Under the pieces are notes generated by a model. That model was not told the DNA's origin. It worked only from the letters and a program-made list of their open reading frames with translations, and searched no databases. Source: Myxococcota bacterium (GTDB taxonomy: Bacteria; Myxococcota_C; UBA6777). Taken from it: a stretch of DNA of 64,000 nt. A program made the translations under genes and the position numbers. This document shows positions 1 through 64,000 of this stretch, one piece after another (within the stretch, counting starts at the first letter, position 1; each line of letters starts with the position of its first letter). The stretch spans positions 1-64,000 of the forward strand of contig JAKLKB010000016.1 in the NCBI GenBank assembly GCA_023150835.1, given 5' to 3'.

Positions 1-115
1 TGGGGACAAGCTCTTTTGACGTGGGGACAAGCTCTTTTGACGTGGGGACAAGCTCTTTTGACGTGGGGACAAGCTCTTTTGACGTGGGGACAAGCTCTTT
101 CGACGTGGGGACAAG
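1..115. repeat. 21-bp tandem repeat, five full copies plus a partial
   Basis: A 21-bp unit beginning TGGGGACAAGCTC is repeated head to tail at 1, 22, 43, 64 and 85, with a truncated sixth copy from 106. The first four copies are identical; the fifth has one T to C change. The array may extend beyond the window start. It can be read as a seven-residue peptide repeat on the + strand, but that reading runs straight into intergenic elements and has no convincing ribosome-binding site, so I treat it as non-coding. Confidence 0.9.
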
Positions 116-182
116 TCTTCATGTACGATATCGTATGATGTACACACAAAGGATCGTACACAGACGCCCTGCCATCGGGCAA

Positions 183-54647: not shown

Positions 54648-54765
54648 ATAGGAGTGACGCAGTGGAAAAGGGAAAGCGTGAAGAATCAAACCATTGTAGG
54701 GGCGGTTCGCGAACCGCCCGCGCCCGAACGTTGGCCTTTTTCGTATCGAACTGCGTCAGTCCTAT
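54648..54765 (+). mobile_element. Family A end, palindromic-core variant (A10)
   Basis: A 118-bp unit with terminal inverted repeats ATAGGAGTGACGCAG (54648-54662) and CTGCGTCAGTCCTAT (54751-54765). The core is different from other A copies: a near-perfect palindrome GGGCGGTTCGCGAACCGCCC at 54704-54723. It shares ends with A4 but not the interior, so the family mobilises by its ends. Confidence 0.85.
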
Positions 54766-54852
54766 GCCACAGAGGTTCCAACCAACTGCATCACGCCTCT
54801 TCGAGATCTCTATCAACACAACAGGCACACGCTTTGCTGAGGCCACACCCCA

Positions 54853-55081: not shown

Positions 55082-56380
55082 ATGAAAAAACTTCCTTTCC
55101 ACGTATTCTATACGGCAAGTGTTCTGAAATTTTCGTTCTTTTTTTTCGCTTTTTCTTTACTTTTTTCGTCTGTGGCTTGCTCTCCTCCGTGCACGATCAC
55201 CCCACGCACTGACGGAAGCGCAGAACTTCGATGCGGCGGTCAAACCTATGATATCAAAAACGGAAAAGACGGAGCCAGCGGAAAAGACGGAGCCAGCGGA
55301 AAAGACGGAGCCAGCGGAAAAGACGGAGCCAGCGGAAAAGACGGAGCCAGTTGCTCATTCAAAAAGGAAGCGGATGGAACAGGCACCGTGACCTGCGGAA
55401 GCGAACCCCCCGTCAAAGTCGCATTGCCCGAAAATACTCTCTTGAATGGCATCCCCTACCATGTATTCCAAAACATGCAAGACGGCTTCACGGTAGTGAA
55501 ATTGACCGAAAATGGCGTATACGACGGCGTTTTAGATCCCGAGAAAGATGTCTTTGATCTCACCAAAACTTTCGTCGTGATGTTTTCGATCAAATCCACG
55601 ACCTTCCAACCACGCTACAACAGAATTCTCGAAACCCCTTCGACATTGGTCTGTTCAAGCGACACGGATTGCCCGGCTGGAGGCTCTTGTCGAATCAAGC
55701 AAGTTTGCAAAGAAGACGGAGAATGCCTGCAAAGCACCGCCAAATGCGAGATCCCTCAAGGTGAAACACAAGGGTTTTGCAGCACCAATTGTAAAAAAGA
55801 CGAAGACTGCCTCGCAAAAGGAGCAACCTGTACCCAAGGAAATTGCACAAAGGCTTTCTGTACTGTATGCACCGATGACGTGGATTGCCCTGTGAATACG
55901 CGATGTAAAAATTCTCGCTGCGAATCCTCCGAAACCGTCAACAACATCGGCATCTACAGCCTCGCGAACGCCGTTCCCTGCGAAGGAACCAGCCCAGACG
56001 CGAAGAATCTTAGTTGCACCACAAAAGGCTCCTCTTTTTGCGATCTTGAAGAGAACAAATGCGTACATTTTCGACTGGCTCGCGAACGTTTAGACGAATT
56101 TGTCGTGCAGTGGTCAATGATCCAGATCATACCACAAAGAACTGTTTTTCTTCGCCTTCTCAGCTTCTGCGATGCCTCGATCGAATTTATCTTGGGGCGA
56201 AAACTCGATCCCGTTTTTTATCAAAAATTTATCTGGGGCAACCTCGGAACACCGGGTGTAGACAAGTTCCAATTTATCGGAACATTGAGTTTGCCGGGTT
56301 ATGGAAATAAATCACGATACACATGGCAAGCGCATTTCAAAACCGATGGATATCAAGAAAAATGCGGACTCGCTCCCTAA
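55082..56380 (+). CDS. Collagen-like Cys-rich lipoprotein, subfamily II (first of rightward trio)
   Basis: A 432-residue lipoprotein. Signal peptide FFFFAFSLLFSSVAC; SPPC follows the lipobox Cys, then the two-cysteine module TDGSAELRCGGQTYDI and five identical GKDGAS hexapeptides (collagen-like). Then come a second Cys module, a domain starting NGIPYHVFQNMQDGFTVV, and three CxxDxDC knots (CSSDTDCPAGGSC). The C-terminal domain (RLARERLDEFVVQWSMIQ, YTWQAHFKTDGYQEKC) is shared with the next two genes but not with the leftward trio. GGAG precedes the ATG at 55082. Lower GC, with A-rich codons, than most of the window, a possible sign of different ancestry. Confidence 0.9.
   Translation: MKKLPFHVFYTASVLKFSFFFFAFSLLFSSVACSPPCTITPRTDGSAELRCGGQTYDIKNGKDGASGKDGASGKDGASGKDGASGKDGASCSFKKEADGTGTVTCGSEPPVKVALPENTLLNGIPYHVFQNMQDGFTVVKLTENGVYDGVLDPEKDVFDLTKTFVVMFSIKSTTFQPRYNRILETPSTLVCSSDTDCPAGGSCRIKQVCKEDGECLQSTAKCEIPQGETQGFCSTNCKKDEDCLAKGATCTQGNCTKAFCTVCTDDVDCPVNTRCKNSRCESSETVNNIGIYSLANAVPCEGTSPDAKNLSCTTKGSSFCDLEENKCVHFRLARERLDEFVVQWSMIQIIPQRTVFLRLLSFCDASIEFILGRKLDPVFYQKFIWGNLGTPGVDKFQFIGTLSLPGYGNKSRYTWQAHFKTDGYQEKCGLAP
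55262..55351. repeat. Five 18-bp near-identical tandem repeats (collagen-like)
   Basis: The unit GGAAAAGACGGAGCCAGC starts at 55262, 55280, 55298, 55316 and 55334; the first four are identical and the fifth differs only in its last base. It encodes GKDGAS. Identity at synonymous sites indicates very recent expansion. Confidence 0.95.
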
Positions 56381-56419
56381 TCAAAGCCACGACGCTGTAA
56401 TAAATAAGGTATGCTCTCG

Positions 56420-57601
56420 ATGCAAAAAAACACACGACGCTCTATTTTTACGCCTTCTTTTTTTCTCAAGATCAGCTTTTTGCTGCTTGTTCTGGGCGGC
56501 GCATCGTCTTGTGGTGCGCCATGCTCACTCAAAGAAAACGCCGATGGCAGCGCGTTGTTGACATGTGGCGATCAGTCCTACACCATCCGCAGCGGCAAAG
56601 ACGGCGCACAAGGCCGCTCTTGTGAAATGAAAGACAACCTTGACGGCAGCGCAACCATCGCCTGTGGAGATCAGCTTTATCTGATACGCAAAGGCCAAGA
56701 CGGTCTCAACGGAAAAGACGGCCAAAGTTGCAATCTGCGCGACAACGGAAACGATAGCGTGACCATCCTGTGCGGCACGCAAGAATATACCCTACCCCGA
56801 ACGACCGATACCATCAAAGGAATCCCCTACACTGTCTTTCAACAGCTTTCGGATGGTATTACGGTGATTCGCTTAAAAAAAGACGGCAGTTTTTCACATG
56901 TCCACGATGCAGCGAAGGACGTATTGGATCTCACAGAACCGTTCGTTTTGTTGTTCTCATTAAAAGTGCCTTGGGAAACAGTCTTTTATCCCAAAGTCGA
57001 GATCAAAGCAACCTGCACCACAAGCCAAGATTGTCTTGCTGTAGGGGCAGAGTGCCGCAATGGCCGTTGTTCATCTTGTAGTGCGAATAGCGATTGTCCA
57101 AATGATTCTTATTGTGCAAATGCAGAGTGTCGCAGTAACTTACCAGAAAATAATCCTAATTTCTTTATCTTAAGCCACCTGTCTTGCGATGGAGCCACAC
57201 ACGAAGAACGAAATGCGAATTGCAAAACCAAACAAATGGAGTTTTGCGATGAAGAAACCCGTCGTTGTGCGCATACAGATATGATGAGAAAAAGAGATGG
57301 ATTTAATCGACATCGTGTTGAACTTTTTTATACGCTACCTTATCGGCAAAATCTTTATTACGTGCAAGACTCCTGTAACTTTAGCAAGTTGTTGGCCGAG
57401 CGCAACATCGCTCAACCCATTATCGCCTCTTACTGGACTAATTTTGGAGACAAGGCGGGAAATGTGGAGATCGTCGCTCAATTTGGCAAAATCGAAAAAA
57501 TGGAGAAAGAGGGCCGCCCCTATGGCGCACAGATCCGCTATGTTTGGAAAAGTAAATTCAGCATCGCCAACTACGCTCAGAAATGCCTGACGTTGCCCTA
57601 A
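56420..57601 (+). CDS. Collagen-like Cys-rich lipoprotein, subfamily II (second of rightward trio)
   Basis: A 393-residue lipoprotein. Signal peptide SFLLLVLGGASSC; GAPC follows. It has three two-cysteine modules in a row (ADGSALLTCGDQSYTIRSG, LDGSATIACGDQLYLIRKG, NDSVTILCGTQEYTL) separated by very short GKDG or GQDGLNGKDG linkers. Then GIPYTVFQQLSDGITVIRL matches the domain after the collagen-like part in the previous gene. Knots CTTSQDCLAVGAEC and CSANSDCPNDSYC lead to the subfamily II C-terminal domain (RYVWKSKFSIANYAQKC). The ATG at 56420 is nine bases inside the longest frame (56411) and is better spaced from AAGG. It starts 39 bases after the previous gene. Confidence 0.88.
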   Translation: MQKNTRRSIFTPSFFLKISFLLLVLGGASSCGAPCSLKENADGSALLTCGDQSYTIRSGKDGAQGRSCEMKDNLDGSATIACGDQLYLIRKGQDGLNGKDGQSCNLRDNGNDSVTILCGTQEYTLPRTTDTIKGIPYTVFQQLSDGITVIRLKKDGSFSHVHDAAKDVLDLTEPFVLLFSLKVPWETVFYPKVEIKATCTTSQDCLAVGAECRNGRCSSCSANSDCPNDSYCANAECRSNLPENNPNFFILSHLSCDGATHEERNANCKTKQMEFCDEETRRCAHTDMMRKRDGFNRHRVELFYTLPYRQNLYYVQDSCNFSKLLAERNIAQPIIASYWTNFGDKAGNVEIVAQFGKIEKMEKEGRPYGAQIRYVWKSKFSIANYAQKCLTLP

Positions 57602-57700
57602 ATGGGCCTACGGGCCTACGCATCTTCTAGCGACTGGATTGGCCCACTCCACGGACACAAACACACGCAACACCTCTCCCAAATGGCAAGGAGTCTTTCC

Positions 57701-59011
57701 ATGTCGTGTAAAGAAAAAACCTTTTTAGTACGGTACTTACGAGCATTTTTTTTGACTTTCGCACTCGCTCTCTTGTTCGGAGCTCCCGCATGTTCGCCAC
57801 CTTGTACGCTGACGCCAAACGGCGACAAAACAACAACGCTTCGCTGCGGTGATCAAACCCACACCATCGCAAACGGAAAAGATGGAACGAACGGCCAAAA
57901 CGGTCAAAGCTGTGCGCTGAGCAACAACCCAGACGGAACCGCAACTCTGCGGTGTGACGACGGGAAAGAATACAAGATCAGCAGCGGAAAAGACGGAACA
58001 GACGGCAAAAGCTGCTCCTTAAAAGATCAACCCGACGGAACCGCACTGCTCACCTGCGGCACAGAATCTTTCACAGTACATCGCGGACAAGAAAAAGATC
58101 TTTTTGGCGTACCACAAAAGATCTTCGAGTCTTTGCCCGAAGGACTCCATCTTTTCTTGTTTAAAGAGGATGGTAGCTTTCAAAAAGTCTTTGACAAAAG
58201 CAAAGACACGCTCGATCTTTCAAAGCCGCACCTTGTTGTCGTTATCCTAGAAAAATCATGGAATCCATACTATACGCTACCCAAAGCAAGCTCGACTCGG
58301 ACTTGTATCCAAGATACTGAATGTCCTGCATCAGGAGTATGCCGTATCAAAAAGATTTGTAAATCAGATAACGATTGCCAACTATTTCGTAGCTTATGCA
58401 AGATCAATCCCGGTGAGCAAGAAGGCTTTTGCGAAAAAAATTGCCTATTCAACGAAGATTGCGAAGCCAACGGTGCCGTTTGTAGCACAGGTGTTTGCGA
58501 CAAAGGTGTCTGCTCAAGCTGTGCAAACAACAATGACTGCCCAACAGGTACATCGTGCCGAAACTCGATCTGCGAAGGCGAGATCAACACCAACCTCATC
58601 GCCTACAATACGAGCAACGTAGCGTGCGCAGGAACCACAGAAAAAGCCAAAAACGAATTTTGTAAAAACAACAGCCTTGAATTATGTGACACAACCTTGA
58701 ACCGTTGCGCCCACACGCGGTTGGCCCGCATTGAACTCGCAGAATTTTCCCACCAATGGGCGTCTTTCTTGGTGCTCCCCCATCGTCGCGTGCTTTGGAG
58801 GGTCTATGACGCATGTGTTCTTTCTCGGTACTTCTACTCACGAAAAGTTCCGAGGGATACCCTTGAACGCCTTTTTTGGAGAGCTTTCGGGGACAACCAA
58901 GGAAACGTCGAGTATGTCGTGAGGATCCCTGTGCTGGAAACGCAAACCAACGTGCGCTACGAACTCAAAGCGAAGATGACGCTCGGAGACTACTCGCAAC
59001 GGTGTTTTTGA
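57701..59011 (+). CDS. Collagen-like Cys-rich lipoprotein, subfamily II (third of rightward trio)
   Basis: A 436-residue lipoprotein. Signal peptide FFLTFALALLFGAPAC; SPPC follows. Three two-cysteine modules (KTTTLRCGDQTHTIANG, PDGTATLRCDDGKEYKISSG, PDGTALLTCGTESFTVHRG) alternate with GKDGTNGQNGQ and GKDGTDGK linkers. The next domain starts FGVPQKIFESLPEGLHLFLF, matching GIPY-VFQ of its neighbours. Knots CIQDTECPASGVC and CANNNDCPTGTSC precede the shared C-terminal domain (RLARIELAEFSHQWASFLV, MTLGDYSQRC). AAGGAG precedes the ATG at 57701; the frame to 57602 is unsupported. Convergent with the second MopE-like gene 13 bases away. Confidence 0.9.
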   Translation: MSCKEKTFLVRYLRAFFLTFALALLFGAPACSPPCTLTPNGDKTTTLRCGDQTHTIANGKDGTNGQNGQSCALSNNPDGTATLRCDDGKEYKISSGKDGTDGKSCSLKDQPDGTALLTCGTESFTVHRGQEKDLFGVPQKIFESLPEGLHLFLFKEDGSFQKVFDKSKDTLDLSKPHLVVVILEKSWNPYYTLPKASSTRTCIQDTECPASGVCRIKKICKSDNDCQLFRSLCKINPGEQEGFCEKNCLFNEDCEANGAVCSTGVCDKGVCSSCANNNDCPTGTSCRNSICEGEINTNLIAYNTSNVACAGTTEKAKNEFCKNNSLELCDTTLNRCAHTRLARIELAEFSHQWASFLVLPHRRVLWRVYDACVLSRYFYSRKVPRDTLERLFWRAFGDNQGNVEYVVRIPVLETQTNVRYELKAKMTLGDYSQRCF

Positions 59012-59024
59012 GAGCGTGCAAACG

Positions 59025-60458
59025 CTAAGGCGCGGTCGAGCAGCGCGAGCGTACGCACGTGGTCAATCCTTTGGAATAACAGTCATTTCTTTTGCACTCG
59101 GTATCGCTGAAACAAGAGGAAGGACAAAGACAAGTATCGTCAGGGATCCCGTCGCAATCTTCGTCGACGCCGTTTCCAGTCTGCCCAGCCCCGCATTGTT
59201 CGGGCTTTGGCGTAATCTCGCCTAAACAATTGCTCCATTTTCCATCGATACACTCGCGATATCCAGAAGAACAAGGCGGATTTTTCGGATGAACGGAAGA
59301 GCACTCTACCCGAAGGACGCCTCCTGATGGCCGATTGTCCACTCTTCCATCGCAGTCGTCATCGAACCCGTTGCACTCTTCTTCTTTTGGCTTATCGAAC
59401 TCGCATACGACCCGACCATCGATACATTTGGGGACTCCTGTCGCGCAAGCACCGAGCTTTTGCGTATCCTTGCAGACTCCCGTTGGATATTCAGGAAAAT
59501 ACCACGGAGGCTCGTCGGTTTGACCGTCGTCGTTGTTGTCTTTGCCATCGCACAACTCCAGGCGACAAAAAGCCCCGTTATCGATTTTCCCGTCGCAGTC
59601 ATCATCGATCTTGTTTCCGCAGATCTCTTCTTTCGGAGTGATCGCTCCACGACACGGCTCCCATCGACCATTTTCGCAGTATTGCCCACCCACAGCACAA
59701 GGCCCCTTGCATTCGTAATCTGCGCCGCCTCGCAGCACGCATCCTGCGGTGTCTGCGGGGTAGCAAGGGCGGAACAGCAGACTTAGATACTCTTTCCCAT
59801 ACGGATCTTTTTTCTTGACTCGGTCGATCAATCCGTCACAATCGTCGTCTTCGTTGTTGCACTCTTCGGGCTTTGGAAGGATCTGCTCACGGCAGGCCGT
59901 CCACTTTCCATCCTGACAGTTGCGGATGCCGCCTTTGCATCGCGCCCCGTCACGCAGCGTTCCTTCGGGTCCGTCGTAGCAACTTTGCGGCGTATCGGGG
60001 TCGAGTCCTTCGTCGATCTGGCCGTCGCAATTGTCGTCGTGACCGTTGCAATCTTCCTCCACAGCTTTGCAGACATATCTCCCGCCTTCGCAACGTTGAA
60101 CACCACAGGACTTGTCGTACTTAGGCGTGGAAGAGCAAAGGATCTCGCCTTCTTTTTTTTGGGGGATCAGCCCTTCATCGATCTGGCCGTTGCAGTTGTT
60201 GTCCAGACCGTCGCAGATCTCCTCACCGATCGGTACTTTTGTAGACTGGCAGATCCCAAGCGTGCTTGGATCGCTGTCGCGCTTACAGCAAAACAAGCCA
60301 GAGCCAAAAGCCCCCAAACACTCTTCGCTGTGTTGGCACTTTCGCCCTTGCAAGCGCAACTCCTCCACCGCTGGGGATATCGTGCAACTCCACAGCAAAA
60401 AAACAAACCAGCCACAAGCCATCTTGAAGTACAGGCTGCGTCGCCTCTTTGCTTTCAC
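59025..60458 (-). CDS. MopE-like Cys-rich lipoprotein (right flank of the array)
   Basis: About 477 residues. An n-region KAKRRR precedes ACGWFVFLLWSC, a lipobox. Six MopE-type motifs follow: CDGLDNNCNGQIDE, CNGHDDNCDGQIDE, CNNEDDDCDGLID, CGNKIDDDCDGKID, CDGKDNNDDGQTDE (here the second Cys is replaced by Asp) and CNGFDDDCDGRVD. The C terminus ends in Cys knots (CFSDTECKRNDC). The GTG at 60458 is preferred because AAGGA lies ten bases upstream and it starts the signal peptide; the frame is open to 60512. It faces the rightward trio, as the gene at 47164 faces the leftward trio. A TTGTTT-N16-TAAGAT pair upstream might be its promoter. Confidence 0.88.
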   Translation of the reverse strand: MKAKRRRSLYFKMACGWFVFLLWSCTISPAVEELRLQGRKCQHSEECLGAFGSGLFCCKRDSDPSTLGICQSTKVPIGEEICDGLDNNCNGQIDEGLIPQKKEGEILCSSTPKYDKSCGVQRCEGGRYVCKAVEEDCNGHDDNCDGQIDEGLDPDTPQSCYDGPEGTLRDGARCKGGIRNCQDGKWTACREQILPKPEECNNEDDDCDGLIDRVKKKDPYGKEYLSLLFRPCYPADTAGCVLRGGADYECKGPCAVGGQYCENGRWEPCRGAITPKEEICGNKIDDDCDGKIDNGAFCRLELCDGKDNNDDGQTDEPPWYFPEYPTGVCKDTQKLGACATGVPKCIDGRVVCEFDKPKEEECNGFDDDCDGRVDNRPSGGVLRVECSSVHPKNPPCSSGYRECIDGKWSNCLGEITPKPEQCGAGQTGNGVDEDCDGIPDDTCLCPSSCFSDTECKRNDCYSKGLTTCVRSRCSTAP

Positions 60459-60630
60459 CCAAGCACCATCCTTCCCACGCTCCGAGAGATCCCATACAGA
60501 CCACTCTCCCAAAGACTCACGACACGATCCGTTTCACACAGGCCCCTATCTTAGCCTGCTTTGTTTGGAAAACAACCTCTTTCTTCTGCAACAAAACGAT
60601 GACAACCTTTTTCACCCACAAGCCCAAGGA

Positions 60631-60862
60631 GCGCAGATCACTTTCTTGCCCACAAACAAGCACACGCGGCGCAGATCACTTTCTTGCCCACAAACAAGCA
60701 CACGCGGCGCAGATCACCTTTTTCATGCACAAGCAAGCACACGCGGCGCAGATCACCTTTTTCATGCACAAACAGGCAAAAGTCGCGCAGATCACTCTTT
60801 TTGTGTACGAGCAAGCACGGATCGCGTTCTCGTTCATGCACAACGCGAGCACGATCCTTTTT
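60631..60862. repeat. Six imperfect 38-39-bp tandem repeats upstream of a sigma-54 promoter
   Basis: Units begin with GCGCAGATCAC at 60631, 60669, 60707, 60746 and 60785, with a degenerate sixth from 60824. Most end in CAAGCACACGCG. The first two are identical, 38 bp each; the next three are 39 bp. The array ends at a T-run about 75 bases before the -24 box at 60937, the usual zone for enhancer-binding sites of sigma-54 activators. The 39-bp units also read as 13-residue peptide repeats on either strand, but the 38-bp units break that frame, so I favour a DNA-binding role. Confidence 0.7.
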
Positions 60863-60936
60863 TTTTTTCGTGAGAAACATCACACGATCAAAAATAAACA
60901 TAGATTTATCAAGTGGATATAGTTTTATTTTTTCGA

Positions 60937-60950
60937 GGCACAAAGATTGC
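60937..60950 (+). promoter_or_regulatory. Sigma-54 (-24/-12) promoter
   Basis: GGCAC at 60937-60941, five bases, then TTGC at 60947-60950: this matches the -24/-12 consensus GGCAC-N5-TTGC exactly (the preceding base is A instead of T). Predicted transcription would start near 60961 and cover the genes at 61032 and 61402. The activator is probably the one encoded at 62153. Confidence 0.7.
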
Positions 60951-61031
60951 CCTAGTGCGAAAGCGTCGGCAGCAAAAAAGATTGCAAAAAGAAAAAGCTG
61001 ACAAAAAAGCAAACCAACAAAGGAGACGATC

Positions 61032-61313
61032 ATGAAAGCACAATCCACGGCCATCCTGACAAGCGCAACCACTTTGATTGTCGGCGCTGCTTTTGCAGCC
61101 TGTGTTGCCCTCAGCGTCTCCAAGCCCCAAGCAACACAACGCATCAAAAGCGCCCCCGCTACGGCACAAACCGTCACCTTCACAGAACAAGAAGTTCCTC
61201 ATGTGATGGGTTATCCTCAACGTCGGATCCAAACCGTTTCTTTCGAAGAAAAAGAAGTTCCGATGGTCTTGATCGAGCGCCCATCGAAGCCTGCGACCCT
61301 CGCACGAAAATAA
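61032..61313 (+). CDS. Small single-pass membrane or exported protein
   Basis: A 93-residue protein. An N-terminal hydrophobic segment LTSATTLIVGAAFAACVALSV (given here as LTSATTLIVGAAFAA then CVALSV) is followed by a Lys/Thr/Glu-rich tail with two similar motifs, TVTFTEQEVPHV and TVSFEEKEVPMV, spaced about 25 residues. AAGGAG precedes the ATG at good distance, so it is very probably translated. It lies directly under the sigma-54 promoter. No family recognised. It could be a periplasm-facing anchor or a small regulatory peptide. Confidence 0.8.
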   Translation: MKAQSTAILTSATTLIVGAAFAACVALSVSKPQATQRIKSAPATAQTVTFTEQEVPHVMGYPQRRIQTVSFEEKEVPMVLIERPSKPATLARK

Positions 61314-61401
61314 AACATCTTTTTTCTCTCAACAAAAATTCCCACTAAAAAAGGTTCTGAAAAACGCCTTAAAAAAGGCAACACACGAAAGGAAAAAAGC
61401 C

Positions 61402-62118
61402 ATGAAAAAGCAACATGCACTGATGACCGTGACGATGGGATTGAGCTGCTGGTTTCTTGCTGCTTGCGGGGTGGGTCCCGCCCCCGATGCGCCCCAGACC
61501 TCTGCCGCCCAATACGTCCAAGGTCTCGGCCTCGTACTCAAAAAAGATGCCCCCTTCGCGAAACTCCGCGACCAACTGACGCTCACTGCCCAACTCATGC
61601 TGACGCCGATGCAACGAGGCCCCTTTCAAATGAACCCTCAAAATGGCCTCGCTCCCGAGCAAACCGTGCCTGAATCCTTGGAGGTTCCGCTCCGCTTGAA
61701 CCAAGAATACACCGCACCGATGCGAAACGATATCCAGATCCCCGGAACCGCAGCCTTGCGACGCTGCGAGCCCAAACGCGAAGGTATCGTGACTTCCCGC
61801 GATCCACAAGACTGGAGCTGCGGAGAGCCGATGGAGAAAAATCCCGCTGATCCCGCATCACTCCAGATCTTTTGGGAACTCCAAGACAACCATGCCAAAA
61901 AGCTGGCCCGATTGTTCCTCTTCGCAAACCAACGCAACATCGAGCTCCTCGGCATCGGCGAAAATCCAAGCATCGCAGACCACGCTTCCAACGAAGAATT
62001 CACGGTGCTCTATCTCAAACCCTCTGAAGCTGGAACTTACACCCAAACCTTCTTCCTCAAGCATGAACAAACACTTTTCCGCCTCGATATCCACTACAAT
62101 ATCTATAACCTCCGATAA
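61402..62118 (+). CDS. Putative lipoprotein downstream of the sigma-54 promoter
   Basis: A 238-residue protein with signal peptide LMTVTMGLSCWFLAAC and lipobox LAAC (Cys22). The mature part has a conserved-looking Trp-Cys patch (DPQDWSCGEPMEKN) and a C-terminal beta-rich region LFRLDIHYNIYNLR. I recognise no family. GAAAGGAAAAAAG precedes the ATG. It is 88 bases from the small protein at 61032 on the same strand and probably in the same transcript; the gap holds a small GCCTT/AAGGC hairpin. It converges with the activator gene. Confidence 0.82.
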   Translation: MKKQHALMTVTMGLSCWFLAACGVGPAPDAPQTSAAQYVQGLGLVLKKDAPFAKLRDQLTLTAQLMLTPMQRGPFQMNPQNGLAPEQTVPESLEVPLRLNQEYTAPMRNDIQIPGTAALRRCEPKREGIVTSRDPQDWSCGEPMEKNPADPASLQIFWELQDNHAKKLARLFLFANQRNIELLGIGENPSIADHASNEEFTVLYLKPSEAGTYTQTFFLKHEQTLFRLDIHYNIYNLR

Positions 62119-62152
62119 TCCCCTTCGTTTTCCTCCCCCGATCTTCCCCTGC

Positions 62153-63595
62153 TCAACTTTTTTTGTTTAAACCATACTTGCGCATTCGATTATAAGCCCA
62201 CCCTTTTGTAATCCCGAGAGCTTCCGCAGCGTGCGGGACATCCCACCGATACAGTTCCAAAGCATCCAACAACAAGCGCTGTTCGACTTCTTCGAGAGTT
62301 TCTTTGAGGGGGCGGACTTGCCCGTTTAGTAGCGGCGAGAGCGAAACCACTCGGTTGCCATCCGAAGCTTGCAAAAAAGAATGTCCCTCTTTCAATGAAG
62401 GGGCATGACTCTCAGCGCGGCTGTCTTCTTCGATCGGAAACAGATTAAAATCTTCGGGTTCGAGGACGGGGCCGTCCGCCATCGCAGCGGTCCCTTCAAG
62501 AGCGTTTTTCAGCTGGCGGACGTTTCCGGGCCAGATGTAGGACGAAAACATCTCCAACGTCGCCTGAGAAAGCAACAACGGTCGCCCGTCTGAAAAGAGC
62601 GGTAACCATTGCTCACACAACAAAGGGATATCTTCTCGACGCTCACGCAGCGGAGGAACGTCAAGGTGGACTACCGAGATGCGATAAAACAGATCGGATC
62701 GAAAGTGATTCTTTTTGACCTCCTCTCGCAGATCGCGGTTGGTAGCGGCGATCAGACGAAAATCAACAGCGCATTGTGACCCTCCGATGGGTCGAATCTT
62801 TTTTTCGGACAAAACAGAAAGCAATTTTTTTTGTGCATCTGGACTCAGTTCTCCAAGTTCGTCAAGAAAAAGAGTGCCTCCATCTGCTTGTTCAAAGAAG
62901 CCCTTGTGGGCTTTGTTTGCACCCGTAAAAGCATCTTTTACATAACCGAACATCTCGGATTCAAAGAGGTTCTCCGGGATCGCGCCGCAGTTCACTTCGA
63001 CAAAAGGCCCCTCGGCTCGCTTGCTTTGAAGGTGGAGAGCCTTTGCGACGCTGGTCTTTCCAACGCCCGTTTCGCCTGTCAACAAGACGGCCACTTCACG
63101 ATCGCCCAAGCGCTCAATCAAAGAAAAGATCTTTCGCATCGCAGGGCTTTGACCGAGAAGAGAGCCACTTTTGTCTTGGAAATGGATCTGGATATCGCGC
63201 TTGCGTTGTTGGGAGCGCAACTCCAACACAGTATCCCCGATCTTTAATCGAACCCCGGGAACAAGATAGCCTTCTAATATCTGGACTTCGTTGACAAAGA
63301 TGCCGTTGCGGCTTTGCAGATCGCGGATATGCAAACCTTTTTCTGTAATGCGTAGCTGACAATGCGTCGAGCTGACCATCTTATCTTCTTTCAAACAGAG
63401 TTCGCACCAATCTCCTCGCCCGGCGTGGATGATCTCATGCTCCAATTGGAGGATCTCTCCTTTATTCGGGCCGTGGACAACGGCCAAAGACAGCGCATCG
63501 ACCGAGAGTTTGGAAAAACGTGATCGATGCGCTCCTTCGTCGATCATCGTCGTGTTCGCGTCCTTGGTTCGGCGGATCTGCATTTTTTCGTCCAT
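62153..63595 (-). CDS. FHA-domain sigma-54-dependent transcriptional activator
   Basis: A 480-residue bacterial enhancer-binding protein. The N-terminal FHA domain (about 35-128) has GR (59-60), SSTH (75-78) and RNG (96-98), so it can bind phosphothreonine. The AAA+ domain (about 145-375) has Walker A GETGVGKT (174-181), Walker B TLFLDE (241-246) and the arginine-finger region FRSDLFYR. The sigma-54 contact loop reads DAFTGA (221-226), not the usual GAFTGA. A Fis-type helix-turn-helix (about 450-478) ends the protein. GAGGGAAG precedes the ATG. FHA activators of this type respond to Ser/Thr kinases in myxobacteria, so the kinase at 44545 is a reasonable partner. Confidence 0.96.
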   Translation of the reverse strand: MDEKMQIRRTKDANTTMIDEGAHRSRFSKLSVDALSLAVVHGPNKGEILQLEHEIIHAGRGDWCELCLKEDKMVSSTHCQLRITEKGLHIRDLQSRNGIFVNEVQILEGYLVPGVRLKIGDTVLELRSQQRKRDIQIHFQDKSGSLLGQSPAMRKIFSLIERLGDREVAVLLTGETGVGKTSVAKALHLQSKRAEGPFVEVNCGAIPENLFESEMFGYVKDAFTGANKAHKGFFEQADGGTLFLDELGELSPDAQKKLLSVLSEKKIRPIGGSQCAVDFRLIAATNRDLREEVKKNHFRSDLFYRISVVHLDVPPLRERREDIPLLCEQWLPLFSDGRPLLLSQATLEMFSSYIWPGNVRQLKNALEGTAAMADGPVLEPEDFNLFPIEEDSRAESHAPSLKEGHSFLQASDGNRVVSLSPLLNGQVRPLKETLEEVEQRLLLDALELYRWDVPHAAEALGITKGWAYNRMRKYGLNKKS

Positions 63596-63928
63596 ACGTA
63601 CTTCCCTCTTTGCCCTCTATGACACGAAACTTCCTAAAGCAAGATGCCCTTTGCACAGCATCGGACGTTGCGATACAGCGATCGACAACCAACACACCGT
63701 GTATACAACAAGCGATTCGCCTTCTCAAGGCACCATTCGGACTTATGCGGTTGAACGATTTTGTGGGGCGGGGTACCACACCCCGCCTCCTTACCTTGGC
63801 TGTGCCCTGAACCATCGAGCAAACGACGATCGAACAAGGCTCGCAAAAAACAACGAGACGAATAGAGATTTGCTCGATCGGAACCATTTGCAGATGCGGT
63901 GTCTGATACAAGAACCTGTGAACTCTTG
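63596..63928. other. Gap upstream of the activator gene
   Basis: A hairpin GGCGGGGT (63767-63774) / ACCCCGCC (63780-63787), preceded by TTTTGTGG, resembles the end of family A. Short open frames here have no ribosome-binding site. No promoter boxes for the activator gene that I would defend. Confidence 0.4.
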
Positions 63929-64000
63929 ATAGGACTTACGCAGTTGAAAAGGGAAACCCTGAGATATCAGAACGTTGTAGGGGCGATTCGCGAACCGCCC
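63929..64000 (+). mobile_element. Family A end with palindromic core (A11), cut by the window end
   Basis: ATAGGACTTACGCAGTTG at 63929 is a family A end, and GGGGCGATTCGCGAACCGCC at the very end of the window is the palindromic core of A10. The right end is outside the window. Confidence 0.8.

Follow-up and report, generated by a model that had tools for sequence, protein, structure and literature searches.

What does a sigma-54 activator that carries an FHA domain control, and what controls the activator? The question is raised by one end of a 64,000-nucleotide stretch of DNA (the window) from a Myxococcota bacterium, which is positions 1-64000 of contig C136 in a 7.56-Mb draft genome (G000). 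Here, a minus-strand gene encoding MopE-type motifs is followed by plus-strand genes for a 93-amino-acid (aa) protein and a lipoprotein, and then by the gene for the activator, which returns to the minus strand and converges with the lipoprotein gene across a gap of 34 bp. Between the MopE-motif gene and the 93-aa gene lies a divergent noncoding region of ~520-610 bp, which holds a tandem repeat array, a hairpin and two candidate promoters (Table 1). A first-pass annotation saw in this arrangement a self-contained, phospho-regulated circuit, in which six repeats serve as enhancers for a near-consensus promoter. The array, a promoter-like site, the two small genes, the FHA activator and the idea of phospho-control survive analysis; the sixth repeat and the "near-consensus" label do not, and the enhancer and the self-contained circuit find no support. 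The reading that we favor, and hold tentatively, is that a gene set leading from Ser/Thr kinases to an FHA activator lies here beside an orphan two-gene lipoprotein operon.

The gene next to the operon does encode the FHA sigma-54 activator that had been claimed. Its product matches FHA (PF00498, 6.3e-12), Sigma54_activat (PF00158, 1.8e-64) and HTH_8 (1.8e-7), and the lid is found as well. The Walker A and Walker B motifs (GETGVGKT and GGTLFLDE) are present, in aligned columns that are conserved. Within the FHA domain, G59 R60, S75, H78 and N97 G98 are invariant across 15 aligned sequences; these we take to be the residues that bind phosphothreonine. The same genome has an rpoN gene (PF04552, E 1.2e-65, at G000:C83).

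Phosphorylation would enter with the neighbors on the other side. Just beyond the window, divergent from the activator, lie two genes for Ser/Thr kinases (Pkinase), at contig positions 64139-66019 and 66249-68213, and the products of both carry N-terminal CxxC pairs. The pairing recurs among relatives, which were sought in 98 genomes (one of the same genus, three more of the same family, the remainder sharing only the domain). A kinase lies within two genes of 13 of the 31 FHA activators; of 108 control genes, 8 have one that close (p 2e-5). Measured by distance at 20 FHA-activator loci, two of which are the same sequence, a kinase is found no farther than ~1.1 kb away in 13 cases, and 15 have one within 3.1 kb. 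The kinase regular expression found nothing in 218,549 bp of other loci from the window's own genome. These regular expressions, and the gene caller based on longest open reading frames (ORFs), are of course crude, and the same methods were used on the controls. The control regions came from two genomes only (G003 and G004), at arbitrary coordinates. To the neighbor comparisons 37 activator loci were supplied, in which the regular expressions recognized 31 FHA activators, and the family comparisons counted L086 without its duplicate, L087.

The two adjacent kinases and the family-wide association strengthen the earlier proposal of phospho-regulation. Control of the activator by Ser/Thr kinases, although predicted from sequence, is thus better supported than was known to the first-pass annotation. 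An open-access literature search found no title on a pair made up of a Ser/Thr kinase and an FHA bacterial enhancer-binding protein (bEBP); the existence of one is not thereby disproved.

How might the set work? One or both of the divergent kinases would be phosphorylated, and would then be bound by the FHA domain of the activator. Alternatively, the kinases may phosphorylate a ligand of that domain. The AAA+ ring of the activator would then open sigma-54 polymerase at its targets, the likeliest local target being the promoter of the operon.

The candidate for that promoter, GGCACAAAGATTGC, has the invariant GG at -24 and GC at -12, correctly spaced (10 bases between) and in a TGGCAC/TTGC context, and the 93-aa ORF starts 82 bp downstream of it. 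The exact GGCAC-N5-TTGC core occurs 25 times in 7.56 Mb on both strands; from this, ~0.0009 cores are expected on one strand of a 519-bp region, a figure to be read in the knowledge that the site was found by looking. Exact cores fall outside genes at 8 of 25 sites, against 2 of 30 for a reversed control core (p 0.018; loci were available for 30 of the 38 reversed sites). A sigma-54 promoter at this position is, to judge from such features, plausible. Between the array and this candidate stands TATCAAGTGGATA (60907-60919), one mismatch from what we take to be the IHF consensus.

Several observations weigh against the favored reading, and the first lies within the activator itself. Where the other 16 of 17 rows compared have GAFTGA (one row is a duplicate contig), this activator has DAFTGA. 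A passage in Francke et al. (PMC3162934) treats D at position 1 of this motif as only putatively functional. In NorR, a passage in another report (PMC2941729) describes D at the second glycine as constitutively active, but that variant corresponds to GAFTDA, unlike the DAFTGA found here.

The second concerns the kinases. Among 13 distant named genomes, a kinase lies within the flanks examined at just 2 loci, these 13 having been chosen from 80 named loci because their match extended into the FHA region or close to it. Thus, kinase linkage belongs more to this family than to FHA activators in general.

The others concern the promoter. The reversed control core occurs 38 times in the genome against 25 for the exact core, so the sigma-54 core is not enriched genome-wide. 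Further, two exact cores (window 54824 and 60937) had been placed inside spurious ORFs by the ORF caller and were reclassified by hand as noncoding; without them, the exact cores outside genes fall to 6 of 25 against 2 of 30 (p 0.076). Nor are sigma-54-like sites (10/12 or better) enriched beside FHA activators: 3/60 were found when one gene was considered and 7/115 when two were, against 8/172 in controls, with a gene caller that skips ORFs shorter than 120 aa and leaves the window's own site uncounted. This gives the self-contained circuit of the first-pass annotation no support. Since the neighbors of FHA activators show no such enrichment, it is adjacency that suggests control of the operon by this activator. 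We also considered, and rejected, the view that FHA activators stand beside sigma-54-driven genes as a rule of the family; an initial contrast of 12 intergenic sites in 36 kb with 22 in 236 kb of coding sequence disappeared when control regions were used.

Last, the sigma-54 candidate has a weak sigma-70-like promoter 14 bp upstream of it. It may be this site that transcribes the operon, the sigma-54-like site then being a product of chance and the activator acting elsewhere. We think this unlikely, yet it deserves to be taken seriously. The sigma-70-like site matches at 9/12 within an AT-rich stretch. The sigma-54 candidate also scores 9/12, against what we take to be the sigma-54 consensus, and 28 sites on the two strands of the 64-kb window reach that level; the first-pass annotation was right that a site is present, but "near-consensus" was too strong. 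Conversely, 0.7 sigma-70-like sites of that match are expected by chance from shuffles, and 0.3 for a smaller region, the promoters of this lineage are uncharacterised, and the exact GGCAC-N5-TTGC core is rare.

What, then, are the repeats? The array has a period of 39 in Tandem Repeats Finder (TRF), with scores of 160-225. Its units begin at 60631 (38 bp), 60669 (38), 60707 (39), 60746 (39) and 60785 (~39), of which the first two are identical 38-mers, and alignment adds a degenerate copy at each edge, one near 60596 and one at 60819-60857. Six tandem repeats of 38-39 bp had been described; the array is real, with five clear units, and what was counted as the sixth has the form of an intrinsic terminator. 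Its hairpin has 14 pairs in 16 positions, contains GC pairs, and is directly followed by a run of 11 T. The folding energy is -18.3 kcal/mol (z -4.2), with 0 of 200 shuffles as good, and of the 13 T-run hairpins that the two strands of the window contain, this is the strongest (-18.5 in that scan). A stock terminator scan missed it, presumably because of its internal mismatches. By its form, the element would halt plus-strand transcription ahead of the operon promoter.

The first-pass annotation took the repeats to be upstream activating sites, to which the FHA activator binds and from which it loops to the -24/-12 promoter to drive the lipoprotein operon. The geometry is suitable, for the array is intergenic and lies at the right distance, 119-306 bp upstream of the candidate -24 element, and the activator is the next gene. 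A weak association can be added: a convergent lipoprotein gene follows 6 of 31 FHA activators against 6 of 167 control pairs, or 5 of 29 against 6 of 167 without two orthologous loci (p 0.012, the lowest p among six comparisons, with 0.14 or higher in the rest). Such a role is nevertheless improbable. The array has no excess of dyad symmetry over dinucleotide shuffles at half-widths of 10 and 14; at a half-width of 20 the test is marginal, with 10% of shuffles as good and the center at the promoter-proximal end, and the sole copy with a dyad is the terminator copy. By arithmetic, a unit of 38-39 bp makes 3.6-3.7 turns of B-DNA, not a whole number, so successive copies face different sides of the DNA. 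The unit is unique in its genome, where a search returned one full match (itself), the 22 further matches being at chance level (E 0.68 or worse). A similar 39-bp array was found in 0 of 19 other FHA-activator loci scanned, some of which have unrelated arrays. The two identical, adjacent 38-mers suggest recent slippage.

Comparable intergenic arrays are also common in the same genome. TRF was applied to ~426 kb of own-genome material (the window and loci, with some overlap) and to 300 kb of control regions. It found other intergenic arrays at window 1-119 and in loci L081, L147 and L074 (the last at a gene edge), and genic ones too; the control regions gave two intergenic arrays in 300 kb. Those in L074 (2275-2453), L081 (1643-1795) and L147 (2749-2866) are arrays of 34-48 bp, and some of them carry GCGATC and GGCGGGC-like segments. 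The array exceeds chance as a repeat, yet such arrays are common in its genome.

The simplest reading is therefore that the array is a minisatellite. Intergenic minisatellites have direct tandem copies, identical neighbors and degenerate ends. The array shares these features, with its two identical neighboring units and the presence of other arrays in its genome; it departs from them in its last copy, which folds into a strong terminator-like hairpin. In the reading that we favor, the tract would be a minisatellite born by slippage in the divergent region, whose promoter-proximal copy became, or began as, an intrinsic terminator. That terminator would shield the operon promoter from plus-strand read-through.

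Could the array instead be read, as protein or as RNA? As a coding repeat it was rejected; three ORFs cross it, but the first units are spaced at 38 bp, so that the reading frame is broken from one to the next. As a structured RNA it was rejected as well, with folding z scores of -0.76 (plus) and +0.91 (minus) and no Rfam family within it; the Rfam scan gave just two matches, both below the gathering score and neither within the array. After these results, the array may still be an unstructured RNA. One version of this, to which we give a slim chance, makes the array and terminator a small plus-strand RNA gene, whose repetitive, unstructured transcript ends at ~60868 and could pair with ribosome-binding sites. 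The GAUCACCU repeats look like the 3' end of 16S rRNA; in a comparison made post hoc with random 39-mers from the window, two units surpassed 98% of them in their match to the 16S 3' tail. Further, the strong terminator has no plus-strand gene just upstream to terminate. Set against this are the lack of a promoter-like site upstream of the array, the same folding and Rfam results, and the search of four family genomes, where the matches listed include no homologue of the array and fall only in the MopE repeats of the neighboring gene.

FHA-domain sigma-54 bEBPs have reportedly been described in Myxococcus xanthus (Jelsbak et al. 2005), and the window's activator, which likewise carries an FHA domain on a sigma-54 activator, belongs to this already known type. 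It differs in that the activators of its family are closely linked to kinase genes, and in its own DAFTGA. M. xanthus, too, has many proteins of both kinds; a passage in PMC4320627 gives 99 predicted Ser/Thr kinases and 53 predicted bEBPs. Typical sigma-54 promoters, as portrayed in part of PMC4641369, include upstream activating sites. The candidate here resembles that portrayal in its correctly spaced GG and GC elements, its intergenic position and its adjacent activator gene; it differs in that no dyad-type activator site was found and the upstream repeats are direct, not inverted.

Other activators of the genome and family deserve mention in their own right. The window's genome has 19 strong matches to PF00158 (>100 bits). 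The motif was examined in 17, giving 11 with GAFTGA, one with GAYTGA, one with GAFTNA, two with GAFTDA, one with DAFTGA and one without the motif. The activators at L107, L116 and L118 are those with GAFTNA or GAFTDA, and may be natural always-on variants, since NorR became constitutive when this glycine was replaced by D or N, by the passage already cited (PMC2941729). One genome of the family (G004) has ~20 full-length FHA activators, 41-50% identical to the window's, against one or two in the genome of the window and in that of its genus mate; this is a lineage-specific expansion.

Table 1. Features of the locus, in window coordinates.
Feature	Positions	Strand	Basis and remarks
MopE-motif gene	59025-60512	-	PF11617, five stretches; ORF; secreted or lipoprotein-like, MopE-type metal-binding motifs
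Tandem array, five clear units	60631-60818	+	TRF, unit list, alignment; intergenic minisatellite-like tract
Putative intrinsic terminator	60819-60868	+	39-nt hairpin 60819-60857, then T11 60858-60868; related to repeat unit
Sigma-70-like promoter TAAACA-17-TATAGT	60895-60923	+	9/12 match
Candidate sigma-54 -24/-12 promoter GGCACAAAGATTGC	60937-60950	+	GGCAC-N5-TTGC; expected start near 60961
93-aa orphan protein	61032-61313	+	One N-terminal hydrophobic segment; ribosome-binding site AAGGAG 61020-61025
238-aa orphan lipoprotein	61402-62118	+	Lipobox LAAC
FHA - AAA+ sigma-54 activator - Fis-type HTH, 480 aa	62153-63595	-	Pfam domains; DAFTGA, codon 62933-62935

The two products of the operon are orphans. 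Neither the 93-aa nor the 238-aa protein has a Pfam or NCBIfam match. For the former, a search of five family genomes gave no significant relative (best other E 0.146), and the latter was found, among the 98 genomes searched, in its own genome only. The C-terminal half of the lipoprotein is predicted with low confidence to be beta-rich (single-sequence model, pLDDT 56.5), and the model has no match in the PDB at E 0.001 or better.

On the other side, the MopE-motif gene has as its upstream region the same divergent region that holds the array, and its true start is probably nearer 60422. Window 55082-59011 holds three lipoprotein-like genes in a row, which encode collagen-like GKDG repeats and cysteine-rich segments. 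A second exact GGCAC-N5-TTGC core lies in noncoding sequence at 54824-54837, ~245 bp upstream of the first of these (55082); therefore, 2 of the 25 sites in the genome are upstream of lipoprotein genes in this cluster. An element of ~115 bp, resembling a miniature inverted-repeat transposable element or a repetitive extragenic palindrome, is found at window 54651-54765 and again at 63932-64000 (where it runs on to C136:64045), with a partial copy at 63739. Its ends are the terminal inverted repeats ACTTACGCAGTT...AACTGCGTAAGT, and its core, GTAGGGGCGNTTCGCGAACCGCCC, has 74 copies in the genome, against 0 for the reversed pattern.

What does all of this amount to? The locus itself is unremarkable, with its orphan lipoprotein operon, a promoter that is plausible and a repeat tract of a common type. 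It would be less so if the slippage-prone array were a copy-number-tunable enhancer, or encoded a repetitive regulatory RNA that stops at its own terminator, within a circuit leading from kinase to FHA activator to sigma-54. We consider this very improbable. If it were true, expression of the lipoprotein would vary heritably with repeat number; should the repeats set enhancer strength, they would make a tunable sigma-54 switch of a new kind, although present evidence leans against it. The wider interest lies in the family. Because kinase-linked FHA activators recur in it, this sparsely sampled family is suited to testing how Ser/Thr phosphorylation reaches sigma-54 promoters.

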